Positions 48,086 to 55,360 of a stretch of DNA of 64,000 bases are shown here, in pieces; positions within the stretch are counted from its first letter, which is position 1; the number at the start of each line of letters is the position of its first letter. Made by a program: the position numbers and the translations under genes. Under the pieces are notes generated by a model. The model was not told the DNA's origin and made no database searches. It saw only the letters and a list, made by a program, of their open reading frames with translations. Source of the DNA: Fulvivirga marina (GTDB lineage Bacteria; Bacteroidota; Bacteroidia; Cytophagales; Cyclobacteriaceae); the NCBI RefSeq assembly GCF_016775155.1, contig NZ_JAEUGD010000058.1, positions 137,733-201,732 of the forward strand, given 5' to 3'.

Positions 48086-48904
48086 ATGAAACAACAAACA
48101 ATAGCCATTTTAGGAGCGGGCAACCTTGGTCTTGCTATTTACAAAGGACTGAAAAAAAGTGGTTTGCTGGAAACCAATAAACTGATACTCACACGACGAG
48201 ACATCAGCGGCTTAATTGGTATCAAGGACCCTTCTGTAACCATAACCACAGAAAACCCTAAAGCTGTGAGCGAAGCGGATATTGTCATTCTTGCCGTCCA
48301 GCCCAAACAACTAAAAGGATTATTACAAGAGGTAAGCCCGGTTTTGGACCCAGACAAACACATGTTAATCTCTGTAATTACAGCGGTGACCATCGCTGAA
48401 ATGGAAGCCTCACTCCCCGGTAAATTTCCCATCATCCGGGCTATGCCAAACACGGCTATTGCAGTACTGCAATCTATGACCTGTATTGCCTACAATGAAC
48501 TGGGAAAGGAAAAGACAGGTATGGTTGAAACTATCTTCAACTGTGTAGGCAAAACTCTGGTCATTCAAGAAGAACTCATGCAGTCTGCCACGGTAGTTTG
48601 TGCCAGTGGCATTGCTTTCTGGATGCGCTTCATCCGGGCTACTACGCAAGGAGGAGTACAATTGGGCTTCGATGCTGAATATGCTCAGGAGATAGCTGTT
48701 CAAACCTGTTTGGGCGCAGCAAGCCTTCTCGGCGAGAACGGTGGTAGTCACCCTGAAACGGAGATTGATAAGGTAACAACACCTCAAGGCTGCACTATCT
48801 CTGGCCTGAATGAAATGGAACATAATGGGCTTAGTTCGGCATTGATCAAGGGACTGGTGAAATCCTATGAAAGGATCAATAAAATGAAGGAAACATCAAA
48901 ATAA
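48086..48904 (+). CDS. proC: Pyrroline-5-carboxylate reductase
   Basis: A 272-residue NAD(P)H enzyme making proline from pyrroline-5-carboxylate. The nucleotide-binding turn GAGNLGLAIYKGL is at residues 9-21; VILAVQPKQLK and IIRAMPNTAIAV follow in the usual places; the C-terminal substrate helix reads TTPQGCTISGLNEMEHNGLSSALI. A role in linking arginine and proline metabolism, or on an N-acyl semialdehyde, could explain its place inside the arginine cluster; plain proline synthesis is the family default. An inverted repeat GGCCACT/AGTGGCC (about 48040-48064) precedes it and repeat copy A follows. Confidence 0.94.
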   Translation: MKQQTIAILGAGNLGLAIYKGLKKSGLLETNKLILTRRDISGLIGIKDPSVTITTENPKAVSEADIVILAVQPKQLKGLLQEVSPVLDPDKHMLISVITAVTIAEMEASLPGKFPIIRAMPNTAIAVLQSMTCIAYNELGKEKTGMVETIFNCVGKTLVIQEELMQSATVVCASGIAFWMRFIRATTQGGVQLGFDAEYAQEIAVQTCLGAASLLGENGGSHPETEIDKVTTPQGCTISGLNEMEHNGLSSALIKGLVKSYERINKMKETSK

Positions 48905-49206
48905 GAACGAATAAACATTGAAAAATAAAATACTACAGGGAACACCCTCTGTCCCGACAGAAAAAATCAGAACACCTTCCTCAAGGGAGGATTAGGGCAT
49001 AAAAGGATTTAAAGTGTGCAACTAATAAAGGGCTGTATTTGAATGATTGATAGCAATGTCCCAAAATGTCTCCTTAAGGGGGCTACAGGGGTGTTCTCCG
49101 AACAGAAACTCAAGAGATACCATTTATAAGACAAAAGAAAAAGAATTTATTAACCATTTAAACAAAAAGATGAACTACAAAAATCATCCATGACTAAATA
49201 ACAATT
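48905..49206. other. proC-argD spacer
   Basis: A 302-base spacer in an otherwise compact cluster. More than half is repeat copy A (48941-49095). The remaining about 110 bases before argD are AT-rich and contain no ORF. Confidence 0.7.
48941..49095. repeat. Inverted-repeat element, copy A
   Basis: Copy A begins AACACCCTC, has an internal duplicate start (AACACCTTCC), the hairpin CCTCAAGGGAGG, a variable centre with AAAGTGTGCAACTAAT, then CAAAATGTCTCCTTAAGGGGG, CTACAGGGGTGTT. The ends AACACCC and GGGTGTT are inverted. It is the most diverged at its left end, with an insertion of about 30 bases relative to copy D. Confidence 0.75.
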
Positions 49207-50367
49207 ATGAAACTATTTAAGGTATACCCCCAGCTTGACCTCGAGCTTACGAAAGCTCAGGGATGCTACATTTATGACAGATCCGGCGCTCAGTATCTTG
49301 ACCTCTACGGAGGACATGCGGTGATCTCGGTCGGTCATACGCACCCCCATTATGTTAAACGTATAAAGGAACAACTGGACGCAATAGCCTACTACTCCAA
49401 TGCCGTAATTAACCCTGTTCAACACAGCCTTTTGGATAAGCTGGGTAAAATATCAGGATATGATGCATACCAGTTATTTTTATGTAACTCAGGAGCAGAA
49501 GCCATCGAAAATGCCTTAAAAATAGCCTCTTTCCATACTCAAAAGGATAAGCTTGTTGCTTTCAACAAGTCCTTTCATGGTCGTACTTCAAGAGCGCTTT
49601 CTGTAACGGACAACGATAAATACCGTTCGCGGCTTGACAAGTACAGCAATGTGCAGTTTCTGGAAATGAACCTTAATGCTGTTGAATCTGCCTTAAAAAA
49701 CCAAGATGTCTGCGCCGTGTTGATAGAAGGCATTCAGGGACTGGCCGGTATTTACATGCCTGAGGCCGATTTCCTTCCGGGACTAAAGCAACTTTGTGAA
49801 AAGTATGGCGCTTTACTGGTTGTGGATGAAATACAGTCCGGTTATGGCCGCAGTGGAAAATTCTTTGCACACCAACATGCTGATGTGCAACCTGACCTGA
49901 TCACAGTAGCCAAGGGTATGGCCAACGGTTTTCCTATGGGCGGCGTACTCATCAGTCCGAAAATTGAGGGTTGGTTTGGTATGTCGGGCTCCACTTTTGG
50001 GGGCAACCACCTGGCTTGTGTAGCGGCTTTAGCAACATTGGAAATCATCGAGAATGAAAAGCTTGTAGAAAATGCTCAAAAGGTAGGGGCAGAATTGATC
50101 GAAGCTTTAAGAGCCATACCTGAAGTGAAAGAAGTTCGCGGGGCTGGTTTGATGATCGGTGTGGAATTCGATTTCCCTGTAAAAGATATAAGAGAAAACC
50201 TAATGAAGGAGCAGCATGTTTTAACAGGAATGGCAGCTAACCCCAATGTAATCCGGTTATTGCCACCGCTAACCCTAACTCAGGAGCAAGCCGCTTTATT
50301 TGTAGAGAAACTAAAATTAAGCATTCAAAAAATAAGTTCAGATGCAGCAGTTCTTATCGGTAAGTGA
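49207..50367 (+). CDS. argD: Acylornithine aminotransferase
   Basis: A 386-residue PLP-dependent class III aminotransferase giving N-acylornithine from the semialdehyde. LYGGHAVISVGHTHP, LFLCNSGAEAIENALK and NKSFHGRTSRALSVT are in the N-terminal half; VVDEIQSGYGRSG carries the PLP-contacting aspartate; the Schiff-base lysine is in VAKGMANGFPMGG near residue 235. Its last 26 bases overlap the start of the carbamoyltransferase gene, so the two are translated together. It may also work in lysine synthesis (family knowledge). Confidence 0.95.
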   Translation: MKLFKVYPQLDLELTKAQGCYIYDRSGAQYLDLYGGHAVISVGHTHPHYVKRIKEQLDAIAYYSNAVINPVQHSLLDKLGKISGYDAYQLFLCNSGAEAIENALKIASFHTQKDKLVAFNKSFHGRTSRALSVTDNDKYRSRLDKYSNVQFLEMNLNAVESALKNQDVCAVLIEGIQGLAGIYMPEADFLPGLKQLCEKYGALLVVDEIQSGYGRSGKFFAHQHADVQPDLITVAKGMANGFPMGGVLISPKIEGWFGMSGSTFGGNHLACVAALATLEIIENEKLVENAQKVGAELIEALRAIPEVKEVRGAGLMIGVEFDFPVKDIRENLMKEQHVLTGMAANPNVIRLLPPLTLTQEQAALFVEKLKLSIQKISSDAAVLIGK

Positions 50368-51280
50368 CTCGGAAGACCCGGGTAGTTTAGTAAAAAAGGC
50401 GTTGGCCTTAAAAAAAGATCCTTTTGGTAATCAGATAGGAAAAAACAAAACTCTCGGGCTGGTGTTTTTTAATCCCAGCCTGAGAACCCGCATGAGCACG
50501 CAGAAAGCGGCCATGAACCTGGGAATGAATGTCATGGTGATGAACATTGATAAAGACGGCTGGAAAATAGAAACTCATGATGGCGCCATCATGGATGGCG
50601 ACAATCAGGAGCATATCAAAGATGCCGCCCGGGTAATGAGCCAGTATGTTGATGTTCTGGGAGTAAGAACCTTCCCTGCTTTGAAAAGCCGGGAAGAGGA
50701 TTACTCTGAAAATGTAATCAATCAATTTGTGAAACATTCAGAGGTGCCCATCATCAGTCTTGAATCAGCCACCCGGCATCCGTTACAATCGCTGGCAGAC
50801 CTGATCACTATTGAAGAACTGGGCATAAAAAAGCCAAAAGTAGTTCTGTCATGGGCTCCCCATCCACGCATTTTGCCACAGGCGGTATCGAATTCATTCC
50901 TGGAGTGGATAAAAATAACAGATGCTGAAGTAACGCTGGCATGCCCGGAAGGTTATGAACTGGATGATCAGTTTATCGATGGTGTAACCATCTGCCATGA
51001 TCAGGACAAAGCTTTTGAAGGAGCGGACATCATTTACGCCAAGAACTGGAGCAGCTATCACCATTATGGACAGCGTTTGGAGGTAAAACAGGACTGGACA
51101 ATTACCAGCGACAAAATGGCTCTAACTAATAATGGAAAGTTTATGCATTGCCTGCCTATACGCAGAAATGTGGTGGCTACTGATGAGGTTATTGATCACT
51201 CAATAGTTTACCAGCAAGCAAAAAACCGTGAGTTTTCAGCGCAGGTGGTGTTGCTGGAGATATTGGAGAGGATGAAATGA
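50342..51280 (+). CDS. argF': N-acylornithine carbamoyltransferase
   Basis: A 312-residue member of the carbamoyltransferase family in the N-acetyl/N-succinylornithine group known from Bacteroides fragilis and Xanthomonas. The carbamoyl-phosphate loop reads SLRTRMST instead of STRTR; EDGAIMDG-like HDGAIMDGDNQEHIKDAARVMS and SLESATRHPLQSLADL follow; HCLPIRRNVVATDEV is near the end. This enzyme works before deacylation, giving N-acylcitrulline. Acetyl versus succinyl specificity cannot be settled by eye. It overlaps argD by 26 bases and is followed by repeat copy B. Confidence 0.93.
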   Translation: MQQFLSVSDSEDPGSLVKKALALKKDPFGNQIGKNKTLGLVFFNPSLRTRMSTQKAAMNLGMNVMVMNIDKDGWKIETHDGAIMDGDNQEHIKDAARVMSQYVDVLGVRTFPALKSREEDYSENVINQFVKHSEVPIISLESATRHPLQSLADLITIEELGIKKPKVVLSWAPHPRILPQAVSNSFLEWIKITDAEVTLACPEGYELDDQFIDGVTICHDQDKAFEGADIIYAKNWSSYHHYGQRLEVKQDWTITSDKMALTNNGKFMHCLPIRRNVVATDEVIDHSIVYQQAKNREFSAQVVLLEILERMK

Positions 51281-51290
51281 CGTTCAGCAG

Positions 51291-51420
51291 AACACCCTCC
51301 GGACTGCGGCCACCTCCCTTGAGGGAGGACTTTAGCGCAGTTGAAGGATTCAAGGGGTGCAAACTATTAAAATTGATGGCACTACACTAACTGTCCTCTT
51401 GAGGGGACTACAGGGGTGTT
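51291..51420. repeat. Inverted-repeat element, copy B
   Basis: Copy B is the shortest, about 130 bases: AACACCCTCC, CTGCGGCCACCTCCC, TTGA, GGGAGG, a centre with GGGGTGCAAACTATTAAAATTGAT and GGCACTACACT, then TGTCCTCTTGAGGGGAC, TACAGGGGTGTT. Two hairpins face each other near the ends. It fills almost all of the 163-base gap between argF' and argB. Confidence 0.8.
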
Positions 51421-51443
51421 AGCCATCCAGTAAAGTTATAGAT

Positions 51444-52217
51444 ATGAAAACCAAACTAACCGTAGTTAAAATCGGAGGTAATGTCATTGATGATGCTGAA
51501 ACTTTGAAGCATGTGTTGCAGGAGTTTAGCCAGTTGGACTCTCCTAAAGTCCTGATCCATGGCGGGGGGAAAATTGCTTCTGAGCTTTCTCTTAAAATGG
51601 GATTACAACCAAAGATGGTTGATGGGAGACGTATTACTGACGCTGATACCCTCAAAGTGGTCACCATGACATATGGAGGTTTGGTCAATAAAAACATAGT
51701 TGCTCAGCTTCAGGCATTCAGATGTAATGCAATCGGCCTGACTGGTGCGGATGCCAACGTTATCCCTGCGCAAAAGCGTGTAACCAAAGAGATTGACTAC
51801 GGATATGTAGGTGATTTTGAAGTGGACAATATTGATGTCGAGAGATTATCCTTTTTTATTGACGGAGGCCTCACCCCTATATTTTGCGCCTTGACACATG
51901 ATCAGCAAGGTAATTTACTCAATACCAATGCCGATACTCTGGCATCAGGCATAGCAACCACACTGGCTAAATTTTATGAAACGAAACTCATTTATTGCTT
52001 TGAAAAGCCAGGAGTACTGCTGGATGCTGACGACGACAACACTTTGATCCGTGAACTGGGGTATTTGCACTACCAGCAACTTAAAGATGACGGCATCATC
52101 CACACCGGTATGATCCCCAAACTTGATAATGCTTTTGCTGCCCGACGGCATGGTATTGAAGTAGGCATTAAGCATGCTCTCGATCTGAATAAACCCGCAG
52201 GTACTATTTTGTTATAA
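51444..52217 (+). CDS. argB: N-acetylglutamate kinase
   Basis: A 257-residue amino acid kinase phosphorylating N-acylglutamate. VVKIGGNVIDD and LIHGGGKIASELS bind phosphate groups; VDGRRITDADTLKVVTMTYGGLVNKNIV and the NTNADTLASGIA segment (nucleotide/substrate) match ArgB; GMIPKLDNAFAA is near the end. It lacks the N-terminal helix of arginine-inhibited hexameric forms, so strong feedback inhibition is less likely (inference). Argued to be first of a pair with the deacylase gene, five bases downstream. Confidence 0.95.
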   Translation: MKTKLTVVKIGGNVIDDAETLKHVLQEFSQLDSPKVLIHGGGKIASELSLKMGLQPKMVDGRRITDADTLKVVTMTYGGLVNKNIVAQLQAFRCNAIGLTGADANVIPAQKRVTKEIDYGYVGDFEVDNIDVERLSFFIDGGLTPIFCALTHDQQGNLLNTNADTLASGIATTLAKFYETKLIYCFEKPGVLLDADDDNTLIRELGYLHYQQLKDDGIIHTGMIPKLDNAFAARRHGIEVGIKHALDLNKPAGTILL

Positions 52218-52222
52218 ATTTC

Positions 52223-53281
52223 ATGGACTACACGCAAGACGCCATATCATTACTCCGAGAATTAATTAATATTCCTTCATTGTCGCGGGAAGAGGAAGGC
52301 ACGGCTGAGGCTATTGCCACGTTTATGGAACAACGTGGAATAGCGGCGTTCAGGTCCGGTAATAATGTGTGGGCAAGAAATAAGTTTTACGATCCGACCA
52401 AACCGACTATTCTGCTCAACTCGCACCATGACACGGTTAAACCGAACGCCGGATATACCAGAGATCCTTTCAAAGCAGAAGTGGTCGATGGAAAGCTGTT
52501 TGGATTGGGCAGCAATGATGCGGGCGGGGCTTTGGTGAGTCTTATTGCTACATTTCTGGCTTTTTATGAAGCCGATAACTTAACACATAATCTTATCATA
52601 GCAGCTACTGCCGAAGAGGAGATCTCTGGCAAAGGTGGAATAGAAAGCATACTACCTGACTTGGGCGAGTTGGAACTTGCTATTGTCGGGGAACCCACCC
52701 TGATGCAAATGGCCGTTTCCGAAAAGGGATTGTTGGTGCTGGACTGTACTGCAAAAGGAAAGGCGGGGCATGCGGCTAGAAATGAGGGGAAAAACGCAAT
52801 TTATAAGGCCATAAAAGATATCAGCTGGTTTGAGGGCTACCATTTCCCAAAGGTTTCTGAAACACTGGGACCTATTCATATGAATGTTACCCAAATCCAG
52901 GCGGGATCACAACATAATGTGGTTCCAGACACTTGCAGTTTTGTGGTTGACATTCGTGTAACAGATGCTTACAGCCATGAGCAGATTCTGGAAATTATAA
53001 AGCTATACACCAGTTGTGAAGTAAAAGTACGGTCAACACGTTTAAGGCCATCAGGGATAGACAAAGACCATCCGGTGGTAAAACTAGCAAGTAAAATGCA
53101 GATCAGAACATATGGTTCTCCGACTTTAAGTGACCAGGCACTGATCCCATACCCAAGCATAAAAATAGGTCCCGGAGACTCCGCTCGTTCTCATACTCCG
53201 GATGAATTTATTTATATTGAAGAAATTGAAGAGGGGATTAGAGTGTACAAGGAGCTGTTGGAAAAATTGATTAGAAAATGA
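52223..53281 (+). CDS. argE': M20 deacylase (N-acylcitrulline/ornithine)
   Basis: A 352-residue zinc hydrolase of the M20 family. Metal-site motifs: LNSHHDTVKPN (near residue 75), LGSNDAGGALVSL, ATAEEEISGKGG with the general base glutamate, and EPTLMQMAVSEKG; DKDHPVVKL and RSHTPDEFIYIEE lie near the end, where the last ligand histidine sits. In the carbamoyltransferase-first pathway it should remove the acyl group from N-acylcitrulline. The gene is five bases after argB and is followed by repeat copy C. Confidence 0.92.
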   Translation: MDYTQDAISLLRELINIPSLSREEEGTAEAIATFMEQRGIAAFRSGNNVWARNKFYDPTKPTILLNSHHDTVKPNAGYTRDPFKAEVVDGKLFGLGSNDAGGALVSLIATFLAFYEADNLTHNLIIAATAEEEISGKGGIESILPDLGELELAIVGEPTLMQMAVSEKGLLVLDCTAKGKAGHAARNEGKNAIYKAIKDISWFEGYHFPKVSETLGPIHMNVTQIQAGSQHNVVPDTCSFVVDIRVTDAYSHEQILEIIKLYTSCEVKVRSTRLRPSGIDKDHPVVKLASKMQIRTYGSPTLSDQALIPYPSIKIGPGDSARSHTPDEFIYIEEIEEGIRVYKELLEKLIRK

Positions 53282-53301
53282 GATGTATATTGTTAACGCA
53301 G

Positions 53302-53459
53302 ACTACCCTCCTCCCTGCGGGTACCTCCCTCGAGGGAAGATTGATGCGGTAACATATTATAGCAGGCATTAATTTAAGTAAGTAATTAAAACATAAAATG
53401 CAGTTAACAATTATGGAGCACTATCCAAAATGTCCCCTTGAGTGGACTATAGGGGCGTT
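53302..53459. repeat. Inverted-repeat element, copy C
   Basis: Copy C reads ACTACCCTC, CTCCCTGCGGGTACCTCCC, TCGA, GGGAAG, a longer AT-rich centre (AATTTAAGTAAGTAATTAAAACATAAAATGCA), then GGAGCACTATCCAAAATGTCCCC, TTGA, GTGGAC, TATAGGGGCGTTAG. Several substitutions in both stems suggest it is older than copy D. It ends about 30 bases before the DUF559 gene. Confidence 0.8.
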
Positions 53460-53488
53460 AGTCATTTAGAAAAGGAAATAATAAGTCA

Positions 53489-53881
53489 GTGTCTAAAAAC
53501 AAACTCGTCCCATATCGTAAGGATTTAAAAGCCAAAGCAAGGGAACTTAGAAAGCATAGTACCCTTTCAGAAGTCCTGTTGTGGTGTGAAATTAAAAACA
53601 GACAGTTACTAGATTATCAATTTCATAGGCAGGTACCAATGCTTGATTATATCGTTGACTTTTATTGTCATGAACTCGCCCTGGTAATTGAGATTGATGG
53701 AGAGAGCCATTATCATGATGATGCTCCGGACAGAGATGCATTACGCCAAAAGCGCATAGAACAATATAAAATAACGTTTTTACGATTTGATGATAAAGAT
53801 GTAAAGCAAAATATGTCCTTTGTTTTAAATTCAATTTATCAATGGATTTCGGATTATAAAGAAAAAACGGATACTAAATGA
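53489..53881 (+). CDS. DUF559 endonuclease-domain protein (VSR-like)
   Basis: A 130-residue protein of the DUF559 family, PD-(D/E)XK nuclease fold related to very-short-patch-repair endonucleases. Family landmarks: ARELRKHSTLSEVLLWCEIKNRQL, YQFHRQVPMLDYIVDFYC with the first catalytic aspartate, IEIDGESHYH with E-x-D, and RQKRIEQYKITFLRFDD. The start is GTG at 53489, after AAAGGAAAT as a ribosome site. The gene lies between repeat copies C and D, its stop codon three bases before copy D begins, and interrupts the arginine cluster between the deacylase and argH. It has no metabolic tie to its neighbours. Action on, or spread with, these repeats is inferred. Confidence 0.9.
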   Translation: MSKNKLVPYRKDLKAKARELRKHSTLSEVLLWCEIKNRQLLDYQFHRQVPMLDYIVDFYCHELALVIEIDGESHYHDDAPDRDALRQKRIEQYKITFLRFDDKDVKQNMSFVLNSIYQWISDYKEKTDTK

Positions 53882-53883
53882 AG

Positions 53884-54024
53884 AACACCCTCCCCCCTGC
53901 GGGTACCTCCCTCAAGGGAGGATTAGTGCGTAAAAGATATGAAAAGTGCATAATCAATTAAAATGCATATCAGCATCAATAGCACTAGCCAAAATGTCCC
54001 CTTGAGGGGACCTACAGGGGTGTT
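53884..54024. repeat. Inverted-repeat element, copy D
   Basis: Copy D is the cleanest, about 141 bases: AACACCCTCC, CCCTGCGGGTACCTCCC, TCAA, GGGAGGATTAGTGCG, a centre (AAAAGTGCATAATCAATTAAAATGCA, TCAATAGCACTAGCC), then AAAATGTCCCC, TTGA, GGGGACCTACAGGGGTGTT. The terminal AACACCC/GGGTGTT and the two hairpins face each other. It lies in the leader of argH. Confidence 0.85.
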
Positions 54025-54076
54025 AGCCATGAAGAAAATATTATACATAGATCAACATATTATACATATAAAAAAA

Positions 54077-55360
54077 ATGAAACTCTGGGATAAAGGATAC
54101 TCGATAGAAAAAAACATTGAAACTTTTACAGTAGGTAACGACCGCGAGTTGGACCTTCACCTGGCCAAATACGATGTGCTAGGCTCGCTGGCGCATGCAC
54201 AAATGCTCAAGGAAATTGGGTTGCTGTCCGCAGAAGAGCTGGAAGGAATTGAAAAAGAGATCAGCCTGATCCTGAAGCAGATTGTCGAAGACTCTTTTGA
54301 AATAGAAGATCATTTTGAAGATGTCCATTCTAAAGTAGAGCATCTGCTTACCGAAAAGCTAGGCGAAGCAGGCAAAAAGATCCATACTGCCCGTTCCCGC
54401 AATGATCAGGTTTTAGTTGATCTGCACCTGTTTGCCAGAGATGAGCTACAAGAGGTTAAAGGACTGATCAGGAAGCTTTTTGATCGATTGATCTCACTAA
54501 GTGAACAATACAAAGGTGTTCTTTTACCCGGATACACACACTTTCAGGTAGCAATGCCATCATCGTTCGGCCTATGGTTTGGCGCTTATGCAGAGTCCTT
54601 GATCGATGACATTCACCTGCTCAATGCGGCTTATAAAATAGCGGATCAAAACCCGCTCGGATCAGCAGCAGGTTATGGCAGCTCCTTCCCCATTAATCGC
54701 ACCTCAACAACTGAAAAGATGGGATTTACAACGTTGAAATACAACTCCGTTGCCGCCCAGATGAGCAGAGGAAAACTGGAAAAATCCATAAGCTTCGGAT
54801 TGGCTAGTGCTGCCGGCACACTTTCCAAACTATCCATGGATGTCTGCCTTTACATGAGTCAAAACTTTGGTTTTGTCACTTTTCCTGACCACCTGACAAC
54901 TGGATCCAGCATTATGCCTCACAAAAAGAACCCGGATGTATTTGAATTGGTGCGCGCTAAATGCAACAAGATACAAGCCCTACCCACAGAACTGATCATG
55001 GTCACCAATAACCTTCCCAGCGGCTACCATAGAGATTTCCAGATTCTAAAAGAAAGCTTATTTTCTGCACTTTTCACCCTTAAATCTTGTCTAAAGATCT
55101 CTGAGTATATGCTTCAGCATATCATTATCAATAAAAAAGCCATAGATGATCCTAAATATGACTACTTGTATACGGTAGAGTCTGTCAATAAAGAGGTAAT
55201 CAATGGTCTGCCGTTCCGTGAGGCTTACCAAAAGGTTGGGCAAGCTGTTCAAGCCGGGACTTATGTGCCTGATAAAGATGTTAAACATGCCCATGAAGGG
55301 AGTATTGGAAACTTATGCAATGAGGAAATTAAAGAGAAAATGAGGGAGGCTTTGGGGTAG
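54077..55360 (+). CDS. argH: Argininosuccinate lyase
   Basis: A 427-residue enzyme of the fumarase/aspartase superfamily, releasing fumarate to give arginine. The N-terminus KLWDKGYSIEKNIETFTVGND, DVHSKVEHLLTEKLGEAGKKIHTARSRNDQ, LPGYTHFQVAMPSSFG and the signature GSSIMPHKKNPDVFE (near residue 277) are all present. A longer frame to 53963 would run through repeat copy D, so the ATG at 54077 is preferred. Last gene of the arginine cluster; its upstream region has been rebuilt by copy D and the DUF559 insertion, so its expression may be affected. Confidence 0.95.
   Translation: MKLWDKGYSIEKNIETFTVGNDRELDLHLAKYDVLGSLAHAQMLKEIGLLSAEELEGIEKEISLILKQIVEDSFEIEDHFEDVHSKVEHLLTEKLGEAGKKIHTARSRNDQVLVDLHLFARDELQEVKGLIRKLFDRLISLSEQYKGVLLPGYTHFQVAMPSSFGLWFGAYAESLIDDIHLLNAAYKIADQNPLGSAAGYGSSFPINRTSTTEKMGFTTLKYNSVAAQMSRGKLEKSISFGLASAAGTLSKLSMDVCLYMSQNFGFVTFPDHLTTGSSIMPHKKNPDVFELVRAKCNKIQALPTELIMVTNNLPSGYHRDFQILKESLFSALFTLKSCLKISEYMLQHIIINKKAIDDPKYDYLYTVESVNKEVINGLPFREAYQKVGQAVQAGTYVPDKDVKHAHEGSIGNLCNEEIKEKMREALG

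Follow-up and report, generated by a model that had tools for sequence, protein, structure and literature searches.

DUF559 nuclease genes between tagged hairpin repeats: a probable small mobile element that recurs across bacteria

In the sequences analyzed here, genes for DUF559 proteins, Vsr-like nucleases, were found to be specifically associated with short tagged hairpin repeats. We consider it probable that such a gene is the coding part of a small mobile element that ends in these repeats, and that the nuclease mobilises them. The DUF559-repeat pairing recurs across bacteria, in places even within genes for essential enzymes, and this points to a kind of mobile DNA that is little known. 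An earlier note on this DNA had proposed an endonuclease-repeat partnership, and the proposal is now strongly supported by statistics, by the specificity of the association, by sites seen both occupied and unoccupied, and by copies of whole units within single genomes.

The window, as we call the whole 64,000-nucleotide stretch that was analyzed, carries four copies of one repeat (A to D) in a single arginine operon, all in the same orientation and each an inverted pair of tagged hairpins (Table 1). The claim that a DUF559 gene lies between copies C and D and separates an argE-like gene from argH, as we presume these two flanking ORFs to be, was confirmed, with gaps of about 24 and 2 bases to copies C and D, respectively. 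The ORF matches Pfam PF04480 (E 2.7e-29). In copy D, the tag AACACCC goes with CCTCCCTCAAGGGAGG, and TCCCCTTGAGGGGA goes with CTACAGGGGTGTT; the right hairpin of copy C has a mismatch. A search of the whole genome at E ≤ 0.011 gave 13 rows, one element accounting for two of them, and thus the four operon copies plus eight more, mostly incomplete. No Rfam family matched at E ≤ 0.1 across positions 48800-54200 of the window, the repeat included.

Table 1. Positions in the window of the repeat copies, the nuclease gene and its neighbours
Feature	Position	Strand	Description
Repeat copy A	48941-49095	+	upstream of argD; inverted pair of tagged hairpins, REPIN-like
Repeat copy B	51291-51420	+	between argF and argB
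argE-like gene, left neighbour of copy C	52223-53281	+	ORF
Repeat copy C, left bracket	about 53302-53464	+	hairpins 53324-53339, 53432-53447
DUF559 (Vsr-like) nuclease gene	53489-53881	+	130 aa from a GTG start; conserved residues present
Repeat copy D, right bracket	53884-54024	+	hairpins 53906-53921, 53996-54011
argH, right neighbour of copy D	54077-55360 (start about 54077)	+	ORF

Three DUF559 matches occur in the genome of the window, an assembly of 69 contigs and 6.78 Mb. The second, the standalone gene L001, is bracketed by two near-identical repeats (77 nt, 96% identical) that form a double hairpin unlike that of the window and are its only clear copies in the genome, while the third lies unbracketed inside a 324-aa ORF. 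Between the brackets of both elements there is only the DUF559 gene, with no DDE, HUH, or serine/tyrosine recombinase transposase. These findings bear on an alternative that we think unlikely, in which DUF559 is a bystander: the repeats would owe their spread to a different enzyme, such as a RAYT, and whatever gene happened to lie between two of them would be shuffled by homologous recombination between the copies. Each of the two bracketed genes having its own, different repeat argues against such a passenger, as does the finding of only two weak Y1_Tnp matches in this genome (best 4.4e-7).

The association extends well beyond this genome. We assembled two sets of DUF559 loci. The first comprises 61, the best-scoring ones from the window's genome, 78 relatives, and 296 genomes of the phylum, which is probably Bacteroidota; the second comprises 80 named loci, the top 80 among 577 relatives. 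A locus counted as bracketed if self-BLAST placed a repeat copy on both sides of the domain, no more than 500 nt away. By this measure, 41/61 loci of the first set were bracketed compared to 4/117 positions shifted by 700 nt, and 47/80 of the second compared to 4/140 positions shifted by 900 nt (46/79 when L191, which is the same stretch as L089, is left out). Random ORFs came from the window and from 20 stretches in as many of these genomes and were tested over a central 380-nt stretch; they were bracketed in 3/95 cases when 100-250 aa long and in 0/173 when longer than 250 aa. That DUF559 genes are flanked by the repeat beyond chance, the point that the earlier note proposed to test, is thus borne out, and the near absence of bracketed random ORFs again speaks against a passenger. 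These counts were measured from the ends of the domain; measured from ORF ends, 6/18 DUF559 genes and 3/75 controls were bracketed, the low DUF559 figure arising because ORFs read into the repeats. GIY-YIG loci were rejected as a neutral control, since 16 of the 25 that could be scored (5 of 30 were too short) were themselves bracketed, by tRNA genes, duplicates, or a different palindrome. Bracketing alone is therefore not specific, a point in favor of the bystander reading, and random ORFs were used instead.

Specificity comes from the form of the repeats. Despite differing sequence, most bracketing repeats combine a tag rich in C, for example CCTCACCCC.A, with a hairpin whose 5´ arm is rich in pyrimidines; those at L044 and L095 are among the few that depart from this form. 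The tags that we read are mostly of the CCTCACCC[CT] or AACACCCC type. The short palindromic units with an unpaired 5´ tag occur as inverted doublets, their orientation being assigned by a crude C/G rule that left many undecided. The density of hairpins of this form is 3.47/kb within 300 nt of DUF559 and 0.16/kb beyond, a 22-fold difference. We captured this form in a covariance model, R2, built in two steps, the first from eight typed and partly idealised seeds and the second from the 63 natural matches alone; in an alignment fitted to the structure, 6 of 8 stem pairs show compensatory change. Applied to loci outside its building set, R2 gave 103 matches in 37/80 DUF559 loci (E ≤ 0.05). At the same threshold, it had no match at 30 GIY-YIG loci and none at 30 RAYT-type Y1_Tnp loci, although R2 does not cover every repeat family; the latter result speaks against repeats spread by a RAYT. 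The model finds the L001 repeats and does not match those of the window (best E 0.98).

The domain of unknown function DUF559 is common: 45/74 good-quality genomes of the relatives search, the window's own included, have a match. R2 was present in at least 90/296 genomes when up to 24 candidates per genome were scored, and its presence follows that of the nuclease: 70/126 genomes with a strong DUF559 match (E ≤ 1e-15) carry it, compared to 20/170 others (odds ratio 9). Without the training genomes, the figures are 48/93 and 20/170 (odds ratio 8, p 5e-12), with genomes counted in both comparisons without correction for relatedness. Among ten genomes reached via the named loci, with up to 150 candidates per genome scored, R2 was found in eight, and most often in Pseudomonas alcaligenes (97 matches), Cyanosarcina (75), and Stagnimonas (50).

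There are also counterexamples. The 20/170 genomes that carry R2 without a strong DUF559 match weigh against the mobile-element reading, and an over-cut-off Y1_Tnp gene in 82/118 genomes of a phylum sample is in keeping with another enzyme spreading the repeats. Three genomes, G162, G218, and G145, have 15, 7, and 5 R2 matches, respectively, and no DUF559 match at E ≤ 0.001; they may have lost the partner or use another enzyme. The earlier note had named DUF559 genes without the repeat and repeat-rich genomes without DUF559 as findings that would speak against a partnership. Both exist in part, the former as the 20/61 and 33/80 unbracketed loci and the latter as G162.

Comparisons with relatives further suggest that the units change place. 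ArgH orthologues were identified in 12 of 14 same-genus relatives (all except G010 and G011), and the operon was compared in those 12. At the argE-argH site, G001 has one repeat and G014 the right half of one, neither with DUF559; their DUF559 genes, 81-86% identical to that of the window, instead lie at argF-argB with a repeat on either side, a place that in the window holds copy B alone. The outer flanks of the single G001 repeat match the sequence to the left of C and to the right of D, and the window's site thus equals that of G001 plus the gene and one more repeat (two G001 repeats contain runs of N). In the other ten operons, neither the window repeat (BLAST E ≤ 1e-3) nor DUF559 (tblastn E ≤ 1e-5) was detected. 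At the L001 site, the left neighbor of the gene is matched in 7 other same-genus genomes: both repeat and DUF559 are absent from G012 and G013, worn repeats but no DUF559 are present in G001 and G014, and in the remaining three the matches lie in other surroundings. The empty sites that the earlier note asked for in relatives therefore do exist, and occupied and unoccupied forms of one site, as would be expected of a homing endonuclease, are found at both places and also in LeuRS, described below. Nuclease dN/dS is about 0.10, compared to 0.03-0.09 for four neighboring arg genes, which points to purifying selection on the nuclease.

The differences in position within the arg operon could also result from ordinary recombination between direct repeats, as would be expected if DUF559 were a passenger. 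They also invite a second alternative, one that we regard as distinctly improbable: the repeat would serve only as target and recombination arm, with the nuclease cutting unoccupied repeats and repair inserting the gene, and there would be no spread of repeats to repeat-free DNA. An argE-argH site that equals its G001 counterpart plus a gene and one repeat is what such homing would leave. However, whole units together with their hairpins are found in different surroundings. In two same-genome pairs, the proteins are 90% (L276/L277) and 91% (L289/L290) identical, and the DNA between the outer hairpins is 86% and 91% identical, while identity over the 200 nt outside is 49-56%. Identity is still 68% in the 25 nt just beyond the hairpins on one side in each pair, and the unit ends can therefore be placed to within about 25 nt. 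Inverted hairpins lie at or near the unit ends in both pairs, as terminal inverted repeats would. No target-site duplication was seen in either pair, at sites without a closely related empty form to compare. Similarity of proteins and of flanks is correlated in a Mantel test (r 0.24, 0/500), a result that partly reflects orthology and is not main evidence.

The preferred reading, a nuclease that mobilises its repeats, also accommodates DUF559 domains that reside within other proteins. In 21/61 and 22/80 loci of the two sets, the domain lies in an open frame longer than 250 aa, and Pfam found another domain in 28 of 29 such ORFs. The host proteins are LeuRS, HsdR, HsdM, type ISP enzymes, MetH, chorismate synthase (AroC), and a few others, together with an N-terminal fusion to HisF. 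The inserts in LeuRS, HsdR, HsdM, MetH, and AroC are in frame, and none of the 29 ORFs has an intein or splicing domain in Pfam at E ≤ 1e-5; homing genes of the free-standing sort also exist. The LeuRS of G071 was matched in two pieces by those of 36 other genomes of the order, with residues 322-459 unmatched in all. When ten of these genes were aligned residue by residue, the site held nothing in eight, 1 residue in one, and 20 in one. An insert whose middle has no counterpart in 36 genomes is difficult to explain if the nuclease only enters existing repeats. DUF559 inserts also occupy a second LeuRS site in other genomes. At the first site, which whole elements occupy in other genomes, the LeuRS of L055 and L348 have a short insert that resembles translated repeat, without the nuclease domain.

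One HsdM site is occupied in L053 and L058, which belong to the window's genus, and in L268, a gammaproteobacterial MAG. On a FastTree tree, the L268 domain does not stand next to those of L053 and L058, and tolerant loops, rather than gene-specific homing, would therefore explain the recurrence at this site. Strict gene-specific homing was rejected on this ground and on the distribution of host labels, which change 17 times among 27 embedded rows, compared to 18-22 times in shuffles. Embedded forms do cluster overall: among 158 rows, 39 of them embedded (12 as HisF fusions), there were 13 changes, and none of 200 shuffles gave fewer than 27. Some rows that are in fact embedded, L054 and L200 for instance, were labelled free in this count.

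Two other arrangements deserve mention. The HsdR of L091 (1-1047 aa) has, in a single frame between its N-terminal and helicase domains, both a GIY-YIG (251-317) and a DUF559 (443-547) domain. DUF559 is fused in front of HisF in L196, L202, L205, L208, L210, L219, L229, L237, L243, and L251, mostly through a glycine-rich linker, in Pedobacter, Mucilaginibacter, and other hosts. HisF was assigned by Pfam for L202 and by sequence likeness for the nine others, and was presumed for L232 and L269 from ORF length and kinship. The linker may be a remnant of the repeat, and the fusion is possibly an insertion that has settled.

The conserved residues of the nuclease are intact in the window protein. 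Residues E28, D57, E68, D70, H74, and D83 (window-protein numbering), which from knowledge of the family we take to be the Vsr-like active site, are all present and are invariant or nearly so in alignment A7. The AlphaFold2 model (pLDDT 91.3) has the Vsr-like nuclease fold shared with EDxHD homing endonucleases. The nearest solved structures are 3hrl, a DUF559 protein, and then the homing endonuclease I-Bth0305I (3r3p; E 1.7e-6 and, with Foldseek, E 0.002), a kinship that would also suit a nuclease that does no more than home; Vsr itself is more distant (1vsr, Foldseek E 0.25). PADLOC reported weak similarity to mREase_II and DpdF. The DUF559 protein VsrA of Caulobacter acts in a DNA-damage setting in the account given in PMC12907096, so that some DUF559 members may not be mobile-element enzymes. 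Both observations lend something to a third alternative, that DUF559 serves DNA repair or defence and that the repeats, retained next to the gene, act as terminators or regulatory hairpins. We give this very little credence, since the gene stands at different places together with its repeats, resides in frame inside unrelated enzymes, and has repeats that are also found away from it.

The best explanation, in our view, is that the DUF559 element works like a REPtron with an unrelated, homing-type Vsr-like nuclease. In this model, the cognate hairpin or tag would probably be where the nuclease nicks or cuts DNA, after which host repair would copy either the hairpin pair alone or the hairpin-gene-hairpin unit to a new place. 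Targets would include other repeat copies, in a homing-like manner, and tolerant loops of coding genes, entered in frame. The gene-less derivative would be a REPIN-like hairpin pair, dispersed in the genome. Recognition and cutting of the repeat by the enzyme, the form of DNA that would be cut, and the way of copying are what we infer from sequence comparison.

GIY-YIG genes (L099-L128) often have another palindrome nearby, one of the GTCAT..TCGAG type that resembles CGTC REPs. A model seeded from five GIY-YIG loci, R3, gave 17 matches over 90 loci at E ≤ 0.2: 16 in 8/30 GIY-YIG loci (three of the eight non-seed), 1 in 30 Y1_Tnp loci, and 0 in 30 DUF559 loci. A cruder count of the palindrome motif gave a weak signal, 0.5 compared to 0.13/kb at GIY-YIG loci, yet 0.58 compared to 0.10 at Y1_Tnp loci. 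GIY-YIG may be a partner of CGTC REPs. More tentatively, and with the odds in our estimate somewhat against it, there could be a broad class of bacterial mobile elements without a classical transposase, in which tagged hairpin repeats are mobilised by a lone homing-type nuclease of their own (DUF559/Vsr-like, with GIY-YIG as a parallel branch). Such a class would account for REP families without a known enzyme, perhaps including CGTC REPs, and for palindromic inserts translated within proteins, and insertion in frame into essential enzymes would be part of what lets it persist across phyla. If it exists, it would also make sense of the unusual inserts that LeuRS and other essential enzymes carry in several lineages. 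In a search of the open-access literature on DUF559, alone or with repeats or palindromes, which left subscription journals largely uncovered, none of the papers listed was presented as describing a DUF559-repeat element.

Several known systems resemble parts of this picture. The Vsr mismatch endonuclease and Caulobacter VsrA belong to the same nuclease superfamily, and VsrA holds a DUF559 domain, while an association with repeats is absent from the VsrA system as described in PMC12907096. Rickettsia palindromic elements and intragenic REPs are likewise palindromic elements translated in frame inside protein genes, in the account of PMC3733652; the inserts studied here differ from the Rickettsia elements described there in bringing a nuclease domain and in their repeat family. 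With EDxHD homing endonucleases such as I-Bth0305I (3r3p), as described in PMC3943268, DUF559 shares the Vsr-like fold and residence of the gene inside conserved host genes. In contrast to these enzymes, DUF559 is a single domain of about 130 aa without a long DNA-binding part, and its unit ends in hairpin repeats; no intron or intein was found around the gene, and related domains occur in different host genes. REP/REPIN sequences and their RAYT (TnpA-REP), together the REPtron, are described as relying on an HUH tyrosine transposase and carrying GTAG or CGTC tags (PMC6006769, PMC3733652). Here, the enzyme is a PD-(D/E)XK Vsr-like protein and the tag is C-rich (CCTCACCCC or AACACCCC); in place of an HUH/Y1 gene, the gene flanked by the repeat is DUF559, with R2, which covers repeat families only partially, at 0/30 Y1_Tnp loci. 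Even so, the two systems have in common tagged hairpin repeats, their arrangement as inverted doublets, a flanked nuclease gene, and gene-less copies elsewhere, and the two bracketed DUF559 genes of the window's genome, each with a repeat of its own, extend the likeness to the REPtron.
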